Shown here: piece after piece, positions 7,433-15,575 of the stretch
Position numbering within the stretch: the stretch's first letter is position 1
Layout: the number at the start of each line of letters is the position of its first letter
Assembly (NCBI RefSeq): GCF_014653785.1
Contig: NZ_BNAS01000001.1
Coordinates: 124,001-188,000, forward strand
Length of the DNA stretch: 64,000 bases
Direction: 5' to 3'
Origin: Promicromonospora soli
GTDB taxonomy: Bacteria > Actinomycetota > Actinomycetes > Actinomycetales > Cellulomonadaceae
The notes under the pieces: model-generated
What the model was told of the DNA's origin: nothing
What the model saw: only the letters and a program-made list of their open reading frames with translations
Databases searched by the model: none
Translations under genes and position numbers: made by a program

Positions 7433-10162
7433 TCAGTGACCTGCCTCGTGCCAGGTCGATCCCGTGCCCACGGAGACGTCCAGCGGCACGTTGAGCACGA
7501 ATGCCGCGCCCATCTGGCTGCGCAGCACCTCCTCGGCGGCGGCCCGCTCCCCCGGCGCGACCTCGATCACGAGCTCGTCGTGCACCTGCAGCAGCAGGCG
7601 CGAGCTGAGCCCACGGTCGTCGAGCTCGTGCTGCACCTTGAGCATGGCGAGCTTGATGATGTCGGCGGCGCTGCCCTGGATGGGCGCGTTGAGCGCCATG
7701 CGCTCCGCCATCTGCCGGCGCTGCCGGTTGTCGCTCGTGAGGTCCGGCAGGTAGCGGCGCCGGCCGAGGATCGTTGCGGTGTACCCGGTGGGGCGCGCCT
7801 CCTCGACCACGCCCGAGAGGTAGTCCCGCACGCCGCCGAACCGCTCGAAGTATTCGTTCATGAGGGTCTGCGCCTCGCCCGTGGCGATGTTGAGTTGCTG
7901 CGACAGCCCGAACGCGCTCAGGCCGTATGCCAGGCCGTACGACATGGCCTTGATCTTGGACCGCATCTCGGCGGTCACGTCGGCGGGCGCGACCTCGAAC
8001 ACGCGCGAACCCACGTACCGGTGCAGGTCCTCCCCCGAGTTGAACGCCTCGATCAGGCCCTCGTCCCCGGACAGGTGGGCCATGATCCGCATCTCGATCT
8101 GGCTGTAGTCGGCCGTCAGCAGCGACTCGTAGCCCTCGCCGACCCGGAACGCCCGGCGGATCTGCCGGCCCGCCTCCGTGCGGATCGGGATGTTCTGCAG
8201 GTTCGGGTCGGTCGAGCTCAGGCGGCCCGTGGCGGCGATGGTCTGCTGGAACGTCGTGTGGATGCGGCCGTCGGGCGCCACGGACTTCAGGAGCCCCTCG
8301 ACCGTCACCCGCAGGCGGGACACGTCGCGGTGCGCCAGCAGGTGGGCGAGGAACGGGTGCTCGGTCTTGACGAACAGGTCCTGCAGGCTCGCGGCGTCGG
8401 TGGTGTATCCCGTCTTGATCTTCTTGGTCTTGGGCATGCCGAGCTGGTCGAACAGGACCTCCTGCAGCTGCTTGGGGCTGCCGAGGTTCACCTCACGGCC
8501 GATCACGTCGTACGCCTCGCCCGCGGCGTCCGCGACCCCCTGCGCGAACTGCTGCTCCAGGCTGGTCAGGTACTCGGTGTCGGCCGCGATGCCGATGCGC
8601 TCCATCCGCGCCAGCACGCCCGACAGCGGCAGCTCCACATCGTCCAGCAGGTGGGTGGCGCCGCGGTCGGCGAGCTCGCCCTCCAGGGCCGTCGCCAGCT
8701 CGGCCACGCCGTGCGCGCGCACCGCCTCCGCCTGCCCCTCGGCCTCACCCTCGAGCGACAGGTCCAGCGCGCCCTGTGCGCCCTCCGGCTCCGCGACCTT
8801 GAGCTCCCGGCCGAGGTGCCGCACGGCGAGGTCGCCCAGGTCGTAGCCACGCTGGTCCGGGTGGCACAGGTAGGCCGCGAGCTCGGTGTCGAACACGACG
8901 CCCTCGAGGTCCATGCCGCGCGCGGCGAGCATGTGGGCCGCCGCCTTCGCCCCGTGCAGGACCTTGGGCGCGCTCGCGTCGCCGAGCCAGGTCGCGAGCG
9001 CCTTCTCGTCGTCGGCCCCCAGCTGTGTGAGGTCGACGTAGACGGCCTCACCCGCCGGCTCGGCCACGGCCACTGCCCAGGCGTCCCCGCCGCCGGGTAC
9101 GGCCTTGCCGGCCACCTCGACGCCCACGCGCCCCGTGCGGGCGGCGAGCCAGGCGCCGAGGGTCCCCGGGGCGACGTCGGCCAGGTCGAGGCTGGCGTCG
9201 GAACCGGCGGTCGTCTCCTCGGCGGCCGCACCCGCCGGGTCGACGGCGAGCAGCCGGTCGCGCAGCTGGCCGAACTGCAGGGTGTCGGACACGAGGTGCA
9301 CGGCCTCGCGGTCGAAGCCCGTCAGGGCGAGGTCGGCCACGCCGAGCGGGAGCTCGACGTCGGTCAGCAGGTGGTTGAGCTCGCGGTTGATCCGCACCTG
9401 CTCGAGGTGCTCGCGCAGGCTCTCGCCGGCCTTGCCCTTGATCTCCTCGGCGGCGTCCAGCAGCGCGGCGAGGCCGCCGTGCGCGGTGATCCACTTGGCG
9501 GCGGTCTTGGGCCCGACGCCGGGTACACCCGGCAGGTTGTCGCTCGTCTCGCCCACGAGCGCCGCGAGGTCCGGGTAGCGCTCCGGTGGTACGCCGTACT
9601 TCGCCTCGACGGCAGCCGGGTCCATGCGGGCCAGCTCGGACACGCCCTTCTTCGGGTACAGGACGGTGACGTCGCCGTTCACGAGCTGCAGCGTGTCGCG
9701 GTCGCCGGAACACACCAGCACCTCCATGCCGGCCGTCTTGGCCTCCAGCGCCAGGGTCGCGAGGATGTCGTCCGCCTCGATGCCCGCGAGCTCGATCGAG
9801 GAGACGTGCAGGGCGTCCAGCACCTCCTTGATGAGCGGCACCTGGCCCTTGAACGCGTCCGGCGTGGCGTCCCGCGTGCCCTTGTACTCGGGGAACCGCT
9901 CGGTGCGGAACGTGACACGACCGGCGTCGAACGCCACCGCCATGTGGGTGGGCTGCTCGTCCCGCAGGAGGTTCGTCAGCATCGACGTGAAGCCGTAGAC
10001 GGCGTTGGTGATCTGTCCTGAGCTGGTCGCGAGGGTGTCGGGCAGCGCGTAGAACGCCCGATAGGCCATGGAGTGGCCATCGATCAGCAGGAGACGGGGG
10101 CGGCCCGGTAGAGGCTTGCCCGGAGTACGGCTTGGCGCAGTGGAGGTCACGCCTGACAACAT
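7433..10162 (-). CDS. polA: DNA polymerase I
   Basis: Family A DNA polymerase (about 909 residues) for gap filling and primer removal. The N-terminal third is a 5' nuclease (LLLIDGHSMAYRAF). The middle (about 370-527) has the fold of the 3'-5' exonuclease but lacks its acidic motifs. The C-terminal polymerase has motif A (LLTADYSQIEMR, near 682), motif B (KIKAMSYGLAYGLSAFG) and motif C (LLLQVHDELVIEV, near 854). The start is uncertain: ATG 10162 is given, ATG 10171 is in frame, and GTG 10180 has the best ribosome site (GGAGG five bases upstream). All three overlap or abut the divergent thioesterase start at 10170. Strong identification; proofreading is probably absent. Confidence 0.96.
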   Translation of the reverse strand: MLSGVTSTAPSRTPGKPLPGRPRLLLIDGHSMAYRAFYALPDTLATSSGQITNAVYGFTSMLTNLLRDEQPTHMAVAFDAGRVTFRTERFPEYKGTRDATPDAFKGQVPLIKEVLDALHVSSIELAGIEADDILATLALEAKTAGMEVLVCSGDRDTLQLVNGDVTVLYPKKGVSELARMDPAAVEAKYGVPPERYPDLAALVGETSDNLPGVPGVGPKTAAKWITAHGGLAALLDAAEEIKGKAGESLREHLEQVRINRELNHLLTDVELPLGVADLALTGFDREAVHLVSDTLQFGQLRDRLLAVDPAGAAAEETTAGSDASLDLADVAPGTLGAWLAARTGRVGVEVAGKAVPGGGDAWAVAVAEPAGEAVYVDLTQLGADDEKALATWLGDASAPKVLHGAKAAAHMLAARGMDLEGVVFDTELAAYLCHPDQRGYDLGDLAVRHLGRELKVAEPEGAQGALDLSLEGEAEGQAEAVRAHGVAELATALEGELADRGATHLLDDVELPLSGVLARMERIGIAADTEYLTSLEQQFAQGVADAAGEAYDVIGREVNLGSPKQLQEVLFDQLGMPKTKKIKTGYTTDAASLQDLFVKTEHPFLAHLLAHRDVSRLRVTVEGLLKSVAPDGRIHTTFQQTIAATGRLSSTDPNLQNIPIRTEAGRQIRRAFRVGEGYESLLTADYSQIEMRIMAHLSGDEGLIEAFNSGEDLHRYVGSRVFEVAPADVTAEMRSKIKAMSYGLAYGLSAFGLSQQLNIATGEAQTLMNEYFERFGGVRDYLSGVVEEARPTGYTATILGRRRYLPDLTSDNRQRRQMAERMALNAPIQGSAADIIKLAMLKVQHELDDRGLSSRLLLQVHDELVIEVAPGERAAAEEVLRSQMGAAFVLNVPLDVSVGTGSTWHEAGH

Positions 10163-10169
10163 AGCCCGC

Positions 10170-10607
10170 ATGACTGACACGAGCGCCTCCGCGACGCCCT
10201 CCGGGCCCGCCATCGACTGGAAAGCCCTGTACGGAGTCGACACGACGGGCACGCTGTTCGAGCGCATGGAGATGGAGCTCCTGGAGCTCGCGCCGGACCG
10301 CGCGGTCGGGCGCATCCCGGTGAAGGGCAACACGCAGCCCGCGGGCCTGCTGCACGGGGGCGCCTCCGTCGTGCTCGCCGAGACGCTCGGCTCGCTCGCC
10401 GCGCAGGCGCACGCCGGACCGGACAAGAAGACCGTCGGCATCGAGGTGAGCGCCACGCACCACCGCGGGGCCCGCGAGGGCTACGTCACCGGCACCGCGA
10501 CGGCGATCCACCTGGGCCGCACGACGGCGTCGTACGAGATAGTCATCACCGACGACGCCGGCAAGCGGGTGTGCACGGCTCGCCTGACCTGCCTGATCCT
10601 CGGCTGA
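10170..10607 (+). CDS. PaaI-family hotdog thioesterase
   Basis: A 145-residue single hotdog-domain protein expected to hydrolyse acyl- or aryl-CoA thioesters in the cytoplasm. The diagnostic segment is PAGLLHGGASVVLAETLGS, where the HGG motif precedes the catalytic acid on the long helix. The later strands (VGIEVSATHHRGAREGYVTG) fit the 4HBT family. The ATG at 10170 lies inside the possible polA start region on the other strand, so the two promoters must be intertwined. It is convergent with the acetyltransferase; 10608-10700 between them holds only weak repeats of ctcagc/gctgag. The substrate is unknown, though a menaquinone-pathway DHNA-CoA role is possible for such proteins. Confidence 0.88.
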   Translation: MTDTSASATPSGPAIDWKALYGVDTTGTLFERMEMELLELAPDRAVGRIPVKGNTQPAGLLHGGASVVLAETLGSLAAQAHAGPDKKTVGIEVSATHHRGAREGYVTGTATAIHLGRTTASYEIVITDDAGKRVCTARLTCLILG

Positions 10608-12220: not shown

Positions 12221-12304
12221 GCCGGGTTGGCGGAACAGGCAGACGCGGCGCTCTCAAAAAGCGCTGTCCGAAAGGACATGTGGGTTCGAGTCCCACACCC
12301 GGCA
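12221..12304 (+). tRNA. tRNA-Leu (anticodon CAA)
   Basis: A class II tRNA of 84 nt. The acceptor stem GCCGGGT pairs with ACCCGGC. The anticodon stem GCGCT/AGCGC frames the loop CTCAAAA, giving anticodon CAA (12255-12257) for the TTG codon. A long variable arm (TGTCC-GAAA-GGACA) and the TTCGAGT T-loop confirm a leucine type. The discriminator is A, and CCA is not encoded directly after it. No integrase or attachment repeat is seen next to it. Confidence 0.96.
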
Positions 12305-12332
12305 CACCAGACTCACCGGACCGAGCGCACGG

Positions 12333-14006
12333 TCAGCTCATCGCCGCGGGCACCGGGCTCTCGGCGTACCGCACGACCTCCAGCCCGAACTCCGCGAGGA
12401 TCTCGGGCAGCAGGCGCACCACGTCGCGGTCCTTCTCCCGGTTCTCCTCGGGCAGCTCGGACCACGGCACGCCGATCATGGGGTGCACGCGGGCCTCGTC
12501 GTCCCGCACCGGCCCGCTGCGCCAGCCCTGCGCCACGCGCACGGACTCCCACAGCTCGTGCTCCGCCTCGGCGAGCTTGTCCAGCTCGGCCCCCTCGAAC
12601 ACCACCTCGGGAGCGCCGTCGCGCGGCGCGATCGTCGCGCCCATCCGCGCGAGGCGCGCGGGCAGGCCCACCACCCAGCCCCGGTTGGAGGCCCGCAGGT
12701 CCTGGGAGAGGTCCTCCCAGCGCACCATCGCGGGGACCGCGCCCCAGGCGACGCCGCGCTCCCGCTGGTTGCGCAGGTACACGTGGTGCACGGACCGCGC
12801 GATCCGCTCGTACATGTCGGCGTGGGCGCGGGCCTCCGCCCGTTCGACGTCGGCGAGCAGGTCGCGCATCGTCACGGTGCGCAGCCGGCCGTCGAGGTTG
12901 TCGAGGACGCGCGAGGCCTCCGTGCCGAAGGCGCCCGTGAGCCCCGCCAGGCCGTCGAGCAGGAGCACCAGCGAGCCGGGGCCACCGTGCCACAGCTTCG
13001 TTGCCGTGAGGGCGATCCGCAGTGAGGTGCCCTCTGAGGCATGGCACACGTACACCGTGTCCGGAACGGCGGTGCTCCCCGTGCCGAGCGCCGGGGCCGC
13101 CCGCAGGTCGATCTTCTCGGCCACCGGTGACCACCGGCCACGCAGCTCCTCGACGACCCGGCCGGCGTCGTCGGCCATCAGGTCGACCACGAGGCGCACG
13201 CCGTCCCCCGCGAGCTCCCACTCGCGGGCGAGCCCCACCACGAGGGCCTTGGCGAACTCGCCCGAGCCGACCACCACCACGTGGGTCACCGGCGCGGGCG
13301 CGGCCGGACCGTCCACGATCCGCCGCACCTCGCGCACCGCGAGCGCCTGGGCGGCGATCACGTCGAGCGTGAAGAAGTCGACGCCCGGCTCGGCGCAGCT
13401 CAGGTGCCGCGCCTGGAGCGCGACGCCGAGGTCGGGGTCGCTGACGTGGGCGTAGAGCCGGTCGGGTCCGCTGCCCGCCCGGCGGACGGCGTTCTCCGCC
13501 TCGGCCACGGTCAGCACGTTGGCGGTCGCGTCGGTGGTGTCGTCGCCGCACGCGTACAGGACGGTCGCGCCGGTGAGGCCGACGTCGGCGAGCCCGGCGG
13601 CGTCCGGGGTGCGCAGGACCCGGTGGCCTGCCGCCTCCAGTGCGGCGGTGACGGTGTCGGCGGCGTCGGTCTGCCCGACGACGACGGCGTGCCCCTTGGC
13701 CCGCCGGTGCCTGAACCGGCGGATCTCGCCCGTGAACAGGGCGCGGGCCGCCTCGAACAGCGCGTAGACGGCGGTGCCGGGCGCGAGGAACCGCGCCACC
13801 TGGAGCTGCCAGGACAGCGGCCCGCCCCCGCTGGCCGGGTCGGCGCCCATCACGAAGAGCTGCAGGTCGTGGTAGACGACGTCGTACCAGGTGCGCCCGG
13901 GCAGGTGGCTGGTGTCGAGCGCGAGGCCCCACCACCCGAGTCCGAGCGAGACCACGACGAGGGCGGCGAAGCCGAGGCGGGTCCAGGGGAAGGAGGTGCG
14001 GGTCAC
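12333..14006 (-). CDS. Membrane protein with two Rossmann (TrkA-N-like) domains and a C-terminal RyR domain
   Basis: A 557-residue protein of unknown function. Near the N-terminus is one clear membrane helix (about 11-30, LGFAALVVVSLGLGWWGLAL) and a second hydrophobic stretch near 72-92. Two nucleotide-binding-like units follow: HAVVVGQTDAADTVTAALEA (near 107) and THVVVVGSGEFAKALVVGLA (near 232), resembling TrkA-N/RCK domains though without a perfect GxGxxG. The last 80 residues match the RyR domain found in ryanodine receptors and some bacterial proteins: HELWESVRVAQGW, DDEARVHPMIGVPWSELPEE and KDRDVVRLLP. The start is uncertain: GTG 14006 is used, and TTG 14045 is an alternative. It stands alone between tRNA-Leu and pyk. 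A ligand-sensing or ion-flux role is an inference. Confidence 0.8.
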   Translation of the reverse strand: MTRTSFPWTRLGFAALVVVSLGLGWWGLALDTSHLPGRTWYDVVYHDLQLFVMGADPASGGGPLSWQLQVARFLAPGTAVYALFEAARALFTGEIRRFRHRRAKGHAVVVGQTDAADTVTAALEAAGHRVLRTPDAAGLADVGLTGATVLYACGDDTTDATANVLTVAEAENAVRRAGSGPDRLYAHVSDPDLGVALQARHLSCAEPGVDFFTLDVIAAQALAVREVRRIVDGPAAPAPVTHVVVVGSGEFAKALVVGLAREWELAGDGVRLVVDLMADDAGRVVEELRGRWSPVAEKIDLRAAPALGTGSTAVPDTVYVCHASEGTSLRIALTATKLWHGGPGSLVLLLDGLAGLTGAFGTEASRVLDNLDGRLRTVTMRDLLADVERAEARAHADMYERIARSVHHVYLRNQRERGVAWGAVPAMVRWEDLSQDLRASNRGWVVGLPARLARMGATIAPRDGAPEVVFEGAELDKLAEAEHELWESVRVAQGWRSGPVRDDEARVHPMIGVPWSELPEENREKDRDVVRLLPEILAEFGLEVVRYAESPVPAAMS

Positions 14007-14070
14007 GACCGGAACAATAGCGACATCTCCCCCAGTGACCCGCAACTCGAAGAGAACCCGGACACGAGAA

Positions 14071-14138: not shown

Positions 14139-15575
14139 TCAGAATCCGCTGCGGCCGTCCACGCCCGAGCCGACGCGGTGCACCAGGATCGAGTTCGTGG
14201 TGCCCGGCACGCCGACCGGCGCGCCCGAGACCACCACGACCAGGTCGCCCTTCTCGGCGAGGCCCTGCTCCTGCAGGGTCTGGTCCACCTGCTGCACCAT
14301 CGCGTCGACGTTCTCGACCTTCGGCATCAGGTACTGGGTGGTACCCCACGTCAGGGCGAGCGTGTTGGCGACGTGCTGCTCCGGCGTGAAGGCGAGCAGC
14401 GGGATCGACGAGCGCAGGCGAGACATCCGGCGGGCGGAGTCACCGGACTGCGTGAACGTCACGAGGTACTTGACCCCGAGCGTCTCGCCGATCTCGGCGG
14501 CGGCACGCGTGATGGCGCCACCACGGGTGTGCGGCGTGGAGCCGAGCGGCGCGATGCGCTCCCGGCCTGCCTCCTCCGTGGCCTCGATGATCCGGGCCAT
14601 GGTCTCCACCGTGAGGATCGGGTAGTCGCCCACCGAGGTCTCACCGGACAGCATCACCGCGTCGGCGCCGTCGAGCACGGCGTTGGCGCAGTCCGACGCC
14701 TCGGCACGGGTCGGCGTGGGCGACGTCGTCATCGACTCGAGCACCTGCGTTGCGACGATGACCGGCTTGGCGTTGCGCCGCGCCATCTCGACGATGCGCT
14801 TCTGCACGAGCGGCACCTGCTCCAGCGGCATCTCGACCGCGAGGTCGCCGCGGGCCACCATGACGCCGTCGAACGCGGCGATGACCTCGCTGAGGTTCTC
14901 CACGGCCTGCGGCTTCTCGATCTTGGCGATGACGGGGACCGTACGACCCTCCTCCTCCATCACCCGGCGGACGTCCTCGTAGTCCTTGGCGGACCGCACG
15001 AACGACAGCGCGATGAAGTCGGCGCCGAGCTGGAGCGCCCAGCGCAGGTCGGACTCGTCCTTGTCGGACAGGGCCGGCACGGACACGGCGACGCCGGGCA
15101 GGTTGATGCCCTTGTTGTTCGAGACGGGGCCAGGGACCTCGACCTCGGTGATGACCCGCGGGCCGTCGACGGCGGTGACGCGCACGCGCACCTTGCCGTC
15201 GTCGATCAGCAGCGGGTCGCCGACCCTGGCGTCGTTGGCCAGCCCCTTGTGGGTGGTCGACACCAGCTCGCGCGTCCCGAGAACGTCCTCGGTGGTGATG
15301 GTGAAGGTGTCACCCTTGTTGAGGAAGTGCTTCTCGTCCCCGGCGAACCGGCCGAGCCGGATCTTGGGGCCCTGCAGGTCGACAAGTACGGCGACCGACT
15401 TTCCAGCCGCCTTGGCGGCCGCTCGCACGTTGCGGTAGACCGCCGCATGCGCCTCCTGCTCGCCGTGGCTGCGGTTGATCCGCGCCACGTTCATGCCGGC
15501 GTCTACGAGCTCGCGGAGTTTCTCCGGGCTCTCTGTGGCGGGTCCGATGGTGCACACGATCTTGGCTCTGCGCAT
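14139..15575 (-). CDS. pyk: Pyruvate kinase
   Basis: This cytoplasmic enzyme of 478 residues makes ATP and pyruvate from phosphoenolpyruvate and ADP in glycolysis. The N-terminus MRRAKIVCTIGPATESPEKL is the standard opening of the barrel. The active-site segments LVDLQGPKIRLGRF, the catalytic lysine region PVIAKIEKPQAVENL and the metal site VMVARGDLAVEMP are intact, as is DAVMLSGETSVGDYP. Length is typical. The ATG at 15575 is unambiguous. It follows gltD on the same strand after 71 nt and is closed by the hairpin at 14071-14100. Effector specificity (AMP or sugar phosphates) cannot be told. Confidence 0.97.
   Translation of the reverse strand: MRRAKIVCTIGPATESPEKLRELVDAGMNVARINRSHGEQEAHAAVYRNVRAAAKAAGKSVAVLVDLQGPKIRLGRFAGDEKHFLNKGDTFTITTEDVLGTRELVSTTHKGLANDARVGDPLLIDDGKVRVRVTAVDGPRVITEVEVPGPVSNNKGINLPGVAVSVPALSDKDESDLRWALQLGADFIALSFVRSAKDYEDVRRVMEEEGRTVPVIAKIEKPQAVENLSEVIAAFDGVMVARGDLAVEMPLEQVPLVQKRIVEMARRNAKPVIVATQVLESMTTSPTPTRAEASDCANAVLDGADAVMLSGETSVGDYPILTVETMARIIEATEEAGRERIAPLGSTPHTRGGAITRAAAEIGETLGVKYLVTFTQSGDSARRMSRLRSSIPLLAFTPEQHVANTLALTWGTTQYLMPKVENVDAMVQQVDQTLQEQGLAEKGDLVVVVSGAPVGVPGTTNSILVHRVGSGVDGRSGF

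Follow-up and report, generated by a model that had tools for sequence, protein, structure and literature searches.

A stand-alone bacterial membrane protein with RCK-type domains and a tandem RyR tail, possibly a nucleotide-gated member of a TIR-signalling family

Thoeris sensors are built around SLOG, Macro or caspase domains, and membrane effectors exist in these systems. The present analysis concerns a gene of Promicromonospora soli whose product appears to join another kind of sensor, the RyR domain, to a membrane protein with RCK-type Rossmann domains. The gene lies in a window of 64,000 nucleotides, the whole stretch of DNA analysed (assembly GCF_014653785.1, contig NZ_BNAS01000001.1, positions 124,001 to 188,000), and according to the list of open reading frames (ORFs) of the window it encodes 570 amino acids from a TTG start. 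With a probability of roughly 0.5, judged from sequence comparison and structure prediction, the product belongs to a TIR-signalling, Thoeris-like family of membrane proteins gated by nucleotides, of which the window copy would be a stand-alone member.

The RyR domain has described ligand pockets in a phage and in an animal protein. A May 2026 preprint (PMC13232231) presents RyDEP, gp78 of Mycobacterium phage DyoEdafos, as a small soluble homodimer that acts as a glycosidase on 2'- and 3'-cyclic ADP-ribose (cADPR): H75 and D117 serve in cleavage, W78 supports the adenine, and contact with the phosphates falls to H100. The homologues tested there besides RyDEP did not degrade the signals despite conservation, and six of eight bound them. 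In RyR3, according to PMC12627627, Trp880 stacks on the adenine, and the phosphates are held by Lys884, Arg895 and, from the other repeat, Arg1018. The window protein has the same four ligand and catalytic residues as RyDEP, an alignment with gp78 placing H75, W78, H100 and D117 at H496, W499, H521 and D539; ungapped spacing from the aligned RyR3 row puts Trp880, Lys884 and Arg895 at W499, R503 and R514. It differs from RyDEP in having two repeats in one chain, set on a membrane and RCK scaffold and encoded by a bacterial chromosome. Among 27 family members the second repeat keeps the histidine of H496 in all 27, the tryptophan of W499 in 26, the histidine of H521 in 20 and the aspartate of D539 in 23; the corresponding counts in a wider set are 37, 36, 28 and 25 of 37. 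In the first repeat the histidine is kept in 27/27 members, tyrosine stands for tryptophan in 25/27 and asparagine for aspartate in 26/27. By these alignments, the window protein keeps the residues with which RyR3 binds adenine nucleotides and RyDEP binds cADPR, and the predicted structure of the tail is a tandem RyR clamshell of the Repeat12 type.

An earlier note on this DNA, made from the letters alone, had proposed a single membrane segment, two TrkA-N/RCK-like folds and one C-terminal RyR domain. The RyR assignment was borne out by the Pfam model PF02026 (residues 489–557; 50.3 bits, cut-off 27.4; E 2.8e-13) and by a predicted RyR-like fold; rather than single, the domain is modelled as a repeat (residues 407–474 and 485–559). 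Apart from RyR, no Pfam domain was matched up to E 1. TrkA_N therefore misses the window protein itself, and the two Rossmann folds stand by way of the relatives, 16 of the 27 family members matching TrkA_N, and of the predicted structure. The AlphaFold2 model, built from the 27 relatives, has a mean predicted local distance difference test score (pLDDT) of 74.8 and a predicted template modelling score of 0.69; its membrane part is of low confidence, with block pLDDT values of 56–72 over residues 21–120. The proposed membrane part was retained in this model as two helices with a pore-like helix between them. Structure comparison matches the Rossmann domains to the RCK type (KtrA, TrkA, CASTOR, GsuK); these matches come from VIA-align, which can only re-rank those of Foldseek. 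An identity as DotB, the sole NCBIfam match, was rejected as it lies far under its cut-off. The TTG start is uncertain: since matches in the 11 other genomes of the genus with an unbroken copy begin at query residues 2–14, the true start may lie slightly downstream. The parts of the gene are listed in Table 1.

Table 1. Predicted parts of the window gene, with positions in the window
Feature	Position	Strand	Basis
Whole gene, 2TM - RCK - RCK - RyR - RyR (TM, transmembrane)	12333..14045	-	ORF list, Pfam, AlphaFold2
Predicted TM1, residues 21-44	13914..13985	-	AlphaFold2, low-confidence part
Pore-like helix, residues 53-66, then GAD.. (K+ channels: TVGYG)	13848..13889	-	AlphaFold2, alignment
Predicted TM2 and linker helix, residues 79-116	13698..13811	-	AlphaFold2
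Rossmann/RCK-1, residues 119-245, GxGxxG lost (GQTDAA)	13311..13691	-	AlphaFold2, structure match, alignment
Rossmann/RCK-2, residues 253-398, GSGEFA kept	12852..13289	-	AlphaFold2, structure match, alignment
RyR-like repeat 1, residues 407-474, divergent; H420 kept, Y423 and N454 present	12624..12827	-	AlphaFold2, alignment
RyR repeat 2, residues 485-559; pocket H496, W499, R503, R514, H521, D539	12369..12593	-	Pfam, AlphaFold2, alignment

With the 2TM-RCK channels and RCK rings (GsuK, Slo1, CASTOR/DMI1, KtrA, TrkA) the window protein is predicted to share RCK-type Rossmann domains, whereas it lacks the TVGYG filter, has lost the nucleotide motif of the first RCK domain and carries the RyR tandem in addition. 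The nucleotide motif is kept in the second Rossmann domain and lost in the first; the loss holds for the window group, and relatives such as L048 keep GLGRKG. With animal ryanodine receptors only the RyR domain is shared, as Pfam finds no MIR, SPRY, RIH or Ion_trans in the window protein up to E 1. A TVGYG-like K+ filter signature occurs in 0/37 family rows, the window protein included: after its pore helix DVVYHDLQLFV comes MGAD, a place taken in relatives by such sequences as LESG, LEFG or LGAE. An hhalign comparison with 18 K+ channel segments places MGAD at the filter position in a weak match (probability 6.8%, score 20.1); reversed controls score 11.4 and 11.7, and none of 200 column shuffles reaches 20.1. 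A search of the organism's own genome with Ion_trans_2 (PF07885) did not pick up the window protein. Kinship of the pore with K+ channels is weakly supported.

The association with TIR begins close to home. The same genome has a second copy, a paralogue 47% identical to the window protein, and such paralogues (46–50% identical) occur in 10 of 13 genomes of the genus, in G009 as a fragment. A TIR_2 match adjoins the paralogue, in divergent orientation, in all ten genomes that carry it; in P. soli 132 bp separate the two start codons. The glutamate of the AxEVAWW motif of this TIR partner, which we take to be the TIR catalytic position, is present in P. soli and in 5/5 further genus loci inspected. 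In a quick tree the TIR-paired paralogue has as its sister, with a support of 100, a clade made up of the window gene, its orthologue and the G025 copy. The resemblance to Thoeris lies in this arrangement, a TIR gene adjoining a protein with an ADP-ribose-type sensor domain; the sensor here is RyR, however, and the window copy, unlike the paralogue, has no TIR gene adjacent to it.

The window copy is flanked by tRNA-Leu (12221-12305) and a pyk-like ORF (14139-15575). No partner gene or TIR stands beside it, the TIR matches of its genome being on contigs 2 and 4. An orthologue is present in 13/13 genus genomes, intact and 83–93% identical in the others with an unbroken copy, and tRNA-Leu(CAA) falls inside the fetched locus in 13/13; the pyk neighbour was observed in the window and G009 only. 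In G009 the orthologue is in two pieces: an insertion was rejected and the split is taken as an assembly gap, as runs of N stand at the breaks. G004, G011 and G012, the three genomes that lack the paralogue, also lack a TIR of the paralogue-partner kind, G011 having other TIRs; G004 and G012 keep the window copy and have no TIR_2 and no TIR PF01582 match, the ThsB_TIR and DUF4062 models not having been searched there. TPR-S was found in 0/13 genus genomes. The absence of a partner gene, as the earlier note had it, describes the window copy and does not extend to relatives, which have TIR, TPR-S or RelA-SLOG-RyR neighbours. Elsewhere in the window, a DNA polymerase I-like ORF (7433-10607, minus strand) probably has an over-extended start, since its 5' part overlaps a 4HBT thioesterase ORF (10068-10607, plus strand).

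In the wider family TIR adjacency was read from the flanks of the loci. A same-strand TIR gene adjoins the channel gene in G432, G058, G151, G205, G721 and G760; the neighbour is divergent in G657, convergent and adjacent in G130 and G633, and convergent with one short ORF between in G429, and a TIR gene lies 2.8 kb away in G095 and 5.3 kb away in G072. The partners are of several types: TIR with PknH_C, TIR with PKD and a PD40 propeller, TIR with a sub-cut-off Septum_form match, and a protein of 1413 amino acids with nSTAND1 and WD40, called as TIR by the analysis's own hidden Markov model (HMM). No TIR was called by this HMM in the fetched stretch of G025, G358, G450, G452 and both Archangium genomes, nor beside any of the 17 loci of family f106 (3–10 kb each side). 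TIR occurs within 3 kb in 5 of 16 lineages against 0.18 expected by chance (P 2e-7; lineages hand-chosen, one representative each). This estimate treats G058 and genus g51 as two lineages and does not count G633; the count stays at five because the tree groups G058 with g51 and splits off G633. Its misses include G072 and G634, the latter with a weak TIR match at 5.3 kb and TPR-S adjacent, and seven loci stand outside it: G225, G198, G451, G454, G455 and G553, where the contig is short or ends near, and G431, which gave no clean full-length match. When the TIR label is mapped onto a tree of 37 proteins, five changes are required, at least three by the starred branches, and none of 500 shuffles is as low, a result that near-copies help.

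Other neighbours were met at some loci. In G634 a TPR-S protein (L117:8373-9827) stands directly downstream of the channel-RyR gene, possibly replacing the TIR enzyme. A RelA_SpoT - TPR - SLOG-like - RyR protein of 920 amino acids (L045:8607-12919, the same region as L071), whose SLOG match is sub-cut-off, is divergent from a channel-RyR gene, hinting at another nucleotide signal coupled with RyR. A Chloroflexi contig carries, some 5 kb from its channel-RyR gene, another RyR protein that matches SLOG weakly (L065:2921-4702). A homologous frame is found directly upstream of the channel gene in 5/6 g314 loci (L130-L134, e.g. L131:11865-13574), and the one scanned is a PP2C-type phosphatase. At L063:9929-12512 a RyR frame of 119 amino acids directly follows a TIR protein that also matches a phosphorylase weakly, so that TIR and RyR adjoin here with no channel present. 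In G531 the channel gene (L127:9978-12251) consists of two open frames, in the same frame, with one stop between. PADLOC gave no match for the window protein or four relatives (L069, L048, L053, L059); among five TIR neighbours it gave four partial TIR matches and none for the fifth, and for the TPR-S neighbour one weak match.

Taken together, the family has the look of a combined receptor and effector serving ADP-ribose-type signals, with the RyR tandem as sensor, an RCK ring as transmission and the 2TM pore as output. The TIR genes beside close relatives suggest a membrane pore as the target of a nucleotide signal in bacteria. The subunits would assemble as a ring; an ADP-ribose-type nucleotide derived from nicotinamide adenine dinucleotide (NAD) would close the RyR clamshell, and the resulting movement of the ring would open a pore without a K+ filter and change the membrane potential. 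Members paired with a TIR gene would have the product of that TIR as ligand, with an outcome akin to abortive infection; the window copy may respond in trans to such a signal, or else to an ADP-ribose metabolite of ordinary housekeeping. The more specific version, in which the family consists of bacterial cADPR-gated channels, with TIR making the signal and the RyR tandem on a 2TM-RCK pore receiving it, is put forward tentatively, at less than even odds. The suggestion of the earlier note, a ligand-gated regulator of ion flux or a stress or defence sensor, is partly supported, in that it fits the predicted anatomy (a 2TM-RCK scaffold with a Repeat12-type nucleotide pocket) and the TIR-linked sister genes.

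Several observations weigh against a nucleotide-gated, TIR-linked membrane protein. The window copy has no adjoining TIR, and its retention in G004 and G012 without a TIR_2 or TIR PF01582 match means that it need not depend on TIR. The match beside the paralogue is below the Pfam cut-off in 2/10 genomes (G000 and G003; E 1.9e-5 and 4.7e-5), and 11 of the 16 lineages, with 17/17 f106 loci among them, have no TIR within 3 kb. PF07885 misses the protein in its own genome, the K+ channel profile link has a probability of 6.8%, the first RCK domain is without GxGxxG, and the equivalents of D539 and H521 vary in part of the family (D 25/37, H 28/37).

An alternative is a housekeeping sensor, in which stand-alone copies would answer ordinary ADP-ribose, NAD or ADP and gate a small conductance or a regulatory contact, with no part in defence and with TIR pairing as a side branch. 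The fixed place of the window copy beside tRNA-Leu in 13/13 genus genomes, the two genomes that keep it without a TIR_2 or TIR match, the f106 loci conserved within their genus without a TIR neighbour, and the structural match GsuK, which by the titles of its structures binds NAD and ADP, all speak for this account. It is nonetheless rather unlikely, as the sister paralogue and several distant relatives are TIR-linked, and G004 and G012 could hold another NAD-processing enzyme among the ThsB_TIR and DUF4062 types not searched there. By analogy with RyDEP, the tandem might instead cleave cADPR at the membrane, the 2TM-RCK part being an anchor and allosteric switch; in favour of such a role, both catalytic positions, H496 and D539, are present. 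It is improbable, however: the Asp position is N or A in 12/37 family rows, an enzyme needs no gating-ring scaffold, and in PMC13232231 six of eight homologues bound the signals and those tested besides RyDEP did not degrade them. Least probable, and by a judgement close to dismissal, is a degenerate scaffold, in which pore and first RCK domain have decayed and left a membrane-bound binding or structural protein without gating. The missing K+ filter (0/37 rows), the lost GxGxxG of the window group and the low-confidence membrane model would agree with decay. Against it, conservation is among the highest of all columns at the pocket and at TM-adjacent positions, and every other unbroken copy in the genus is an intact gene of 83–93% identity.

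RyR proteins of any architecture were found in 20/396 sampled genomes of the phylum, 51/394 of the class and 0/14 control genomes. Named relatives with the architecture of the window protein come from Chloroflexi, Phycisphaeraceae, Archangium, Acidobacteriaceae, Nitriliruptoraceae and unclassified Actinomycetota. Other proteins with RyR matches carry a sub-cut-off SLOG (L065), AAA (L074) or weak kinase (L055) match, and L076 has DUF1003 with a sub-cut-off RyR match. Of 50,697 phage records, 237 hold a domain similar to the window RyR repeat at E 0.1; with a Gordonia phage RyR protein as query, 292 records are matched at E 1. In a viral library a Mimivirus protein (probability 0.69) is alone in reaching E <= 0.001; nine of the 12 listed rows with probability 1.00 are named RyR-domain proteins. 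The occurrence in phages would fit a counter-defence role. The RyR domain as a phage cADPR binder is already in print; no account of host 2TM-RCK-RyR proteins or of their TIR pairing was found in the literature listings searched, although the preprint of Yirmiya et al. 2025 may already describe a TIR and RyR-channel pair, in which case any novelty falls.

If the nucleotide-gated reading is true, RyR would be a domain by which bacterial cells receive the ADP-ribose signals that TIR enzymes make, and TIR immunity would gain a channel-type effector. It would also help to explain the lone RyR domains of many phages, which in the cADPR-gated version would be decoys or destroyers against such receptors. 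In that version the family would offer a bacterial counterpart of the disputed link between cADPR and the ryanodine receptor in animals, and the long-standing question of that link could be put to the test in a protein of 570 residues.
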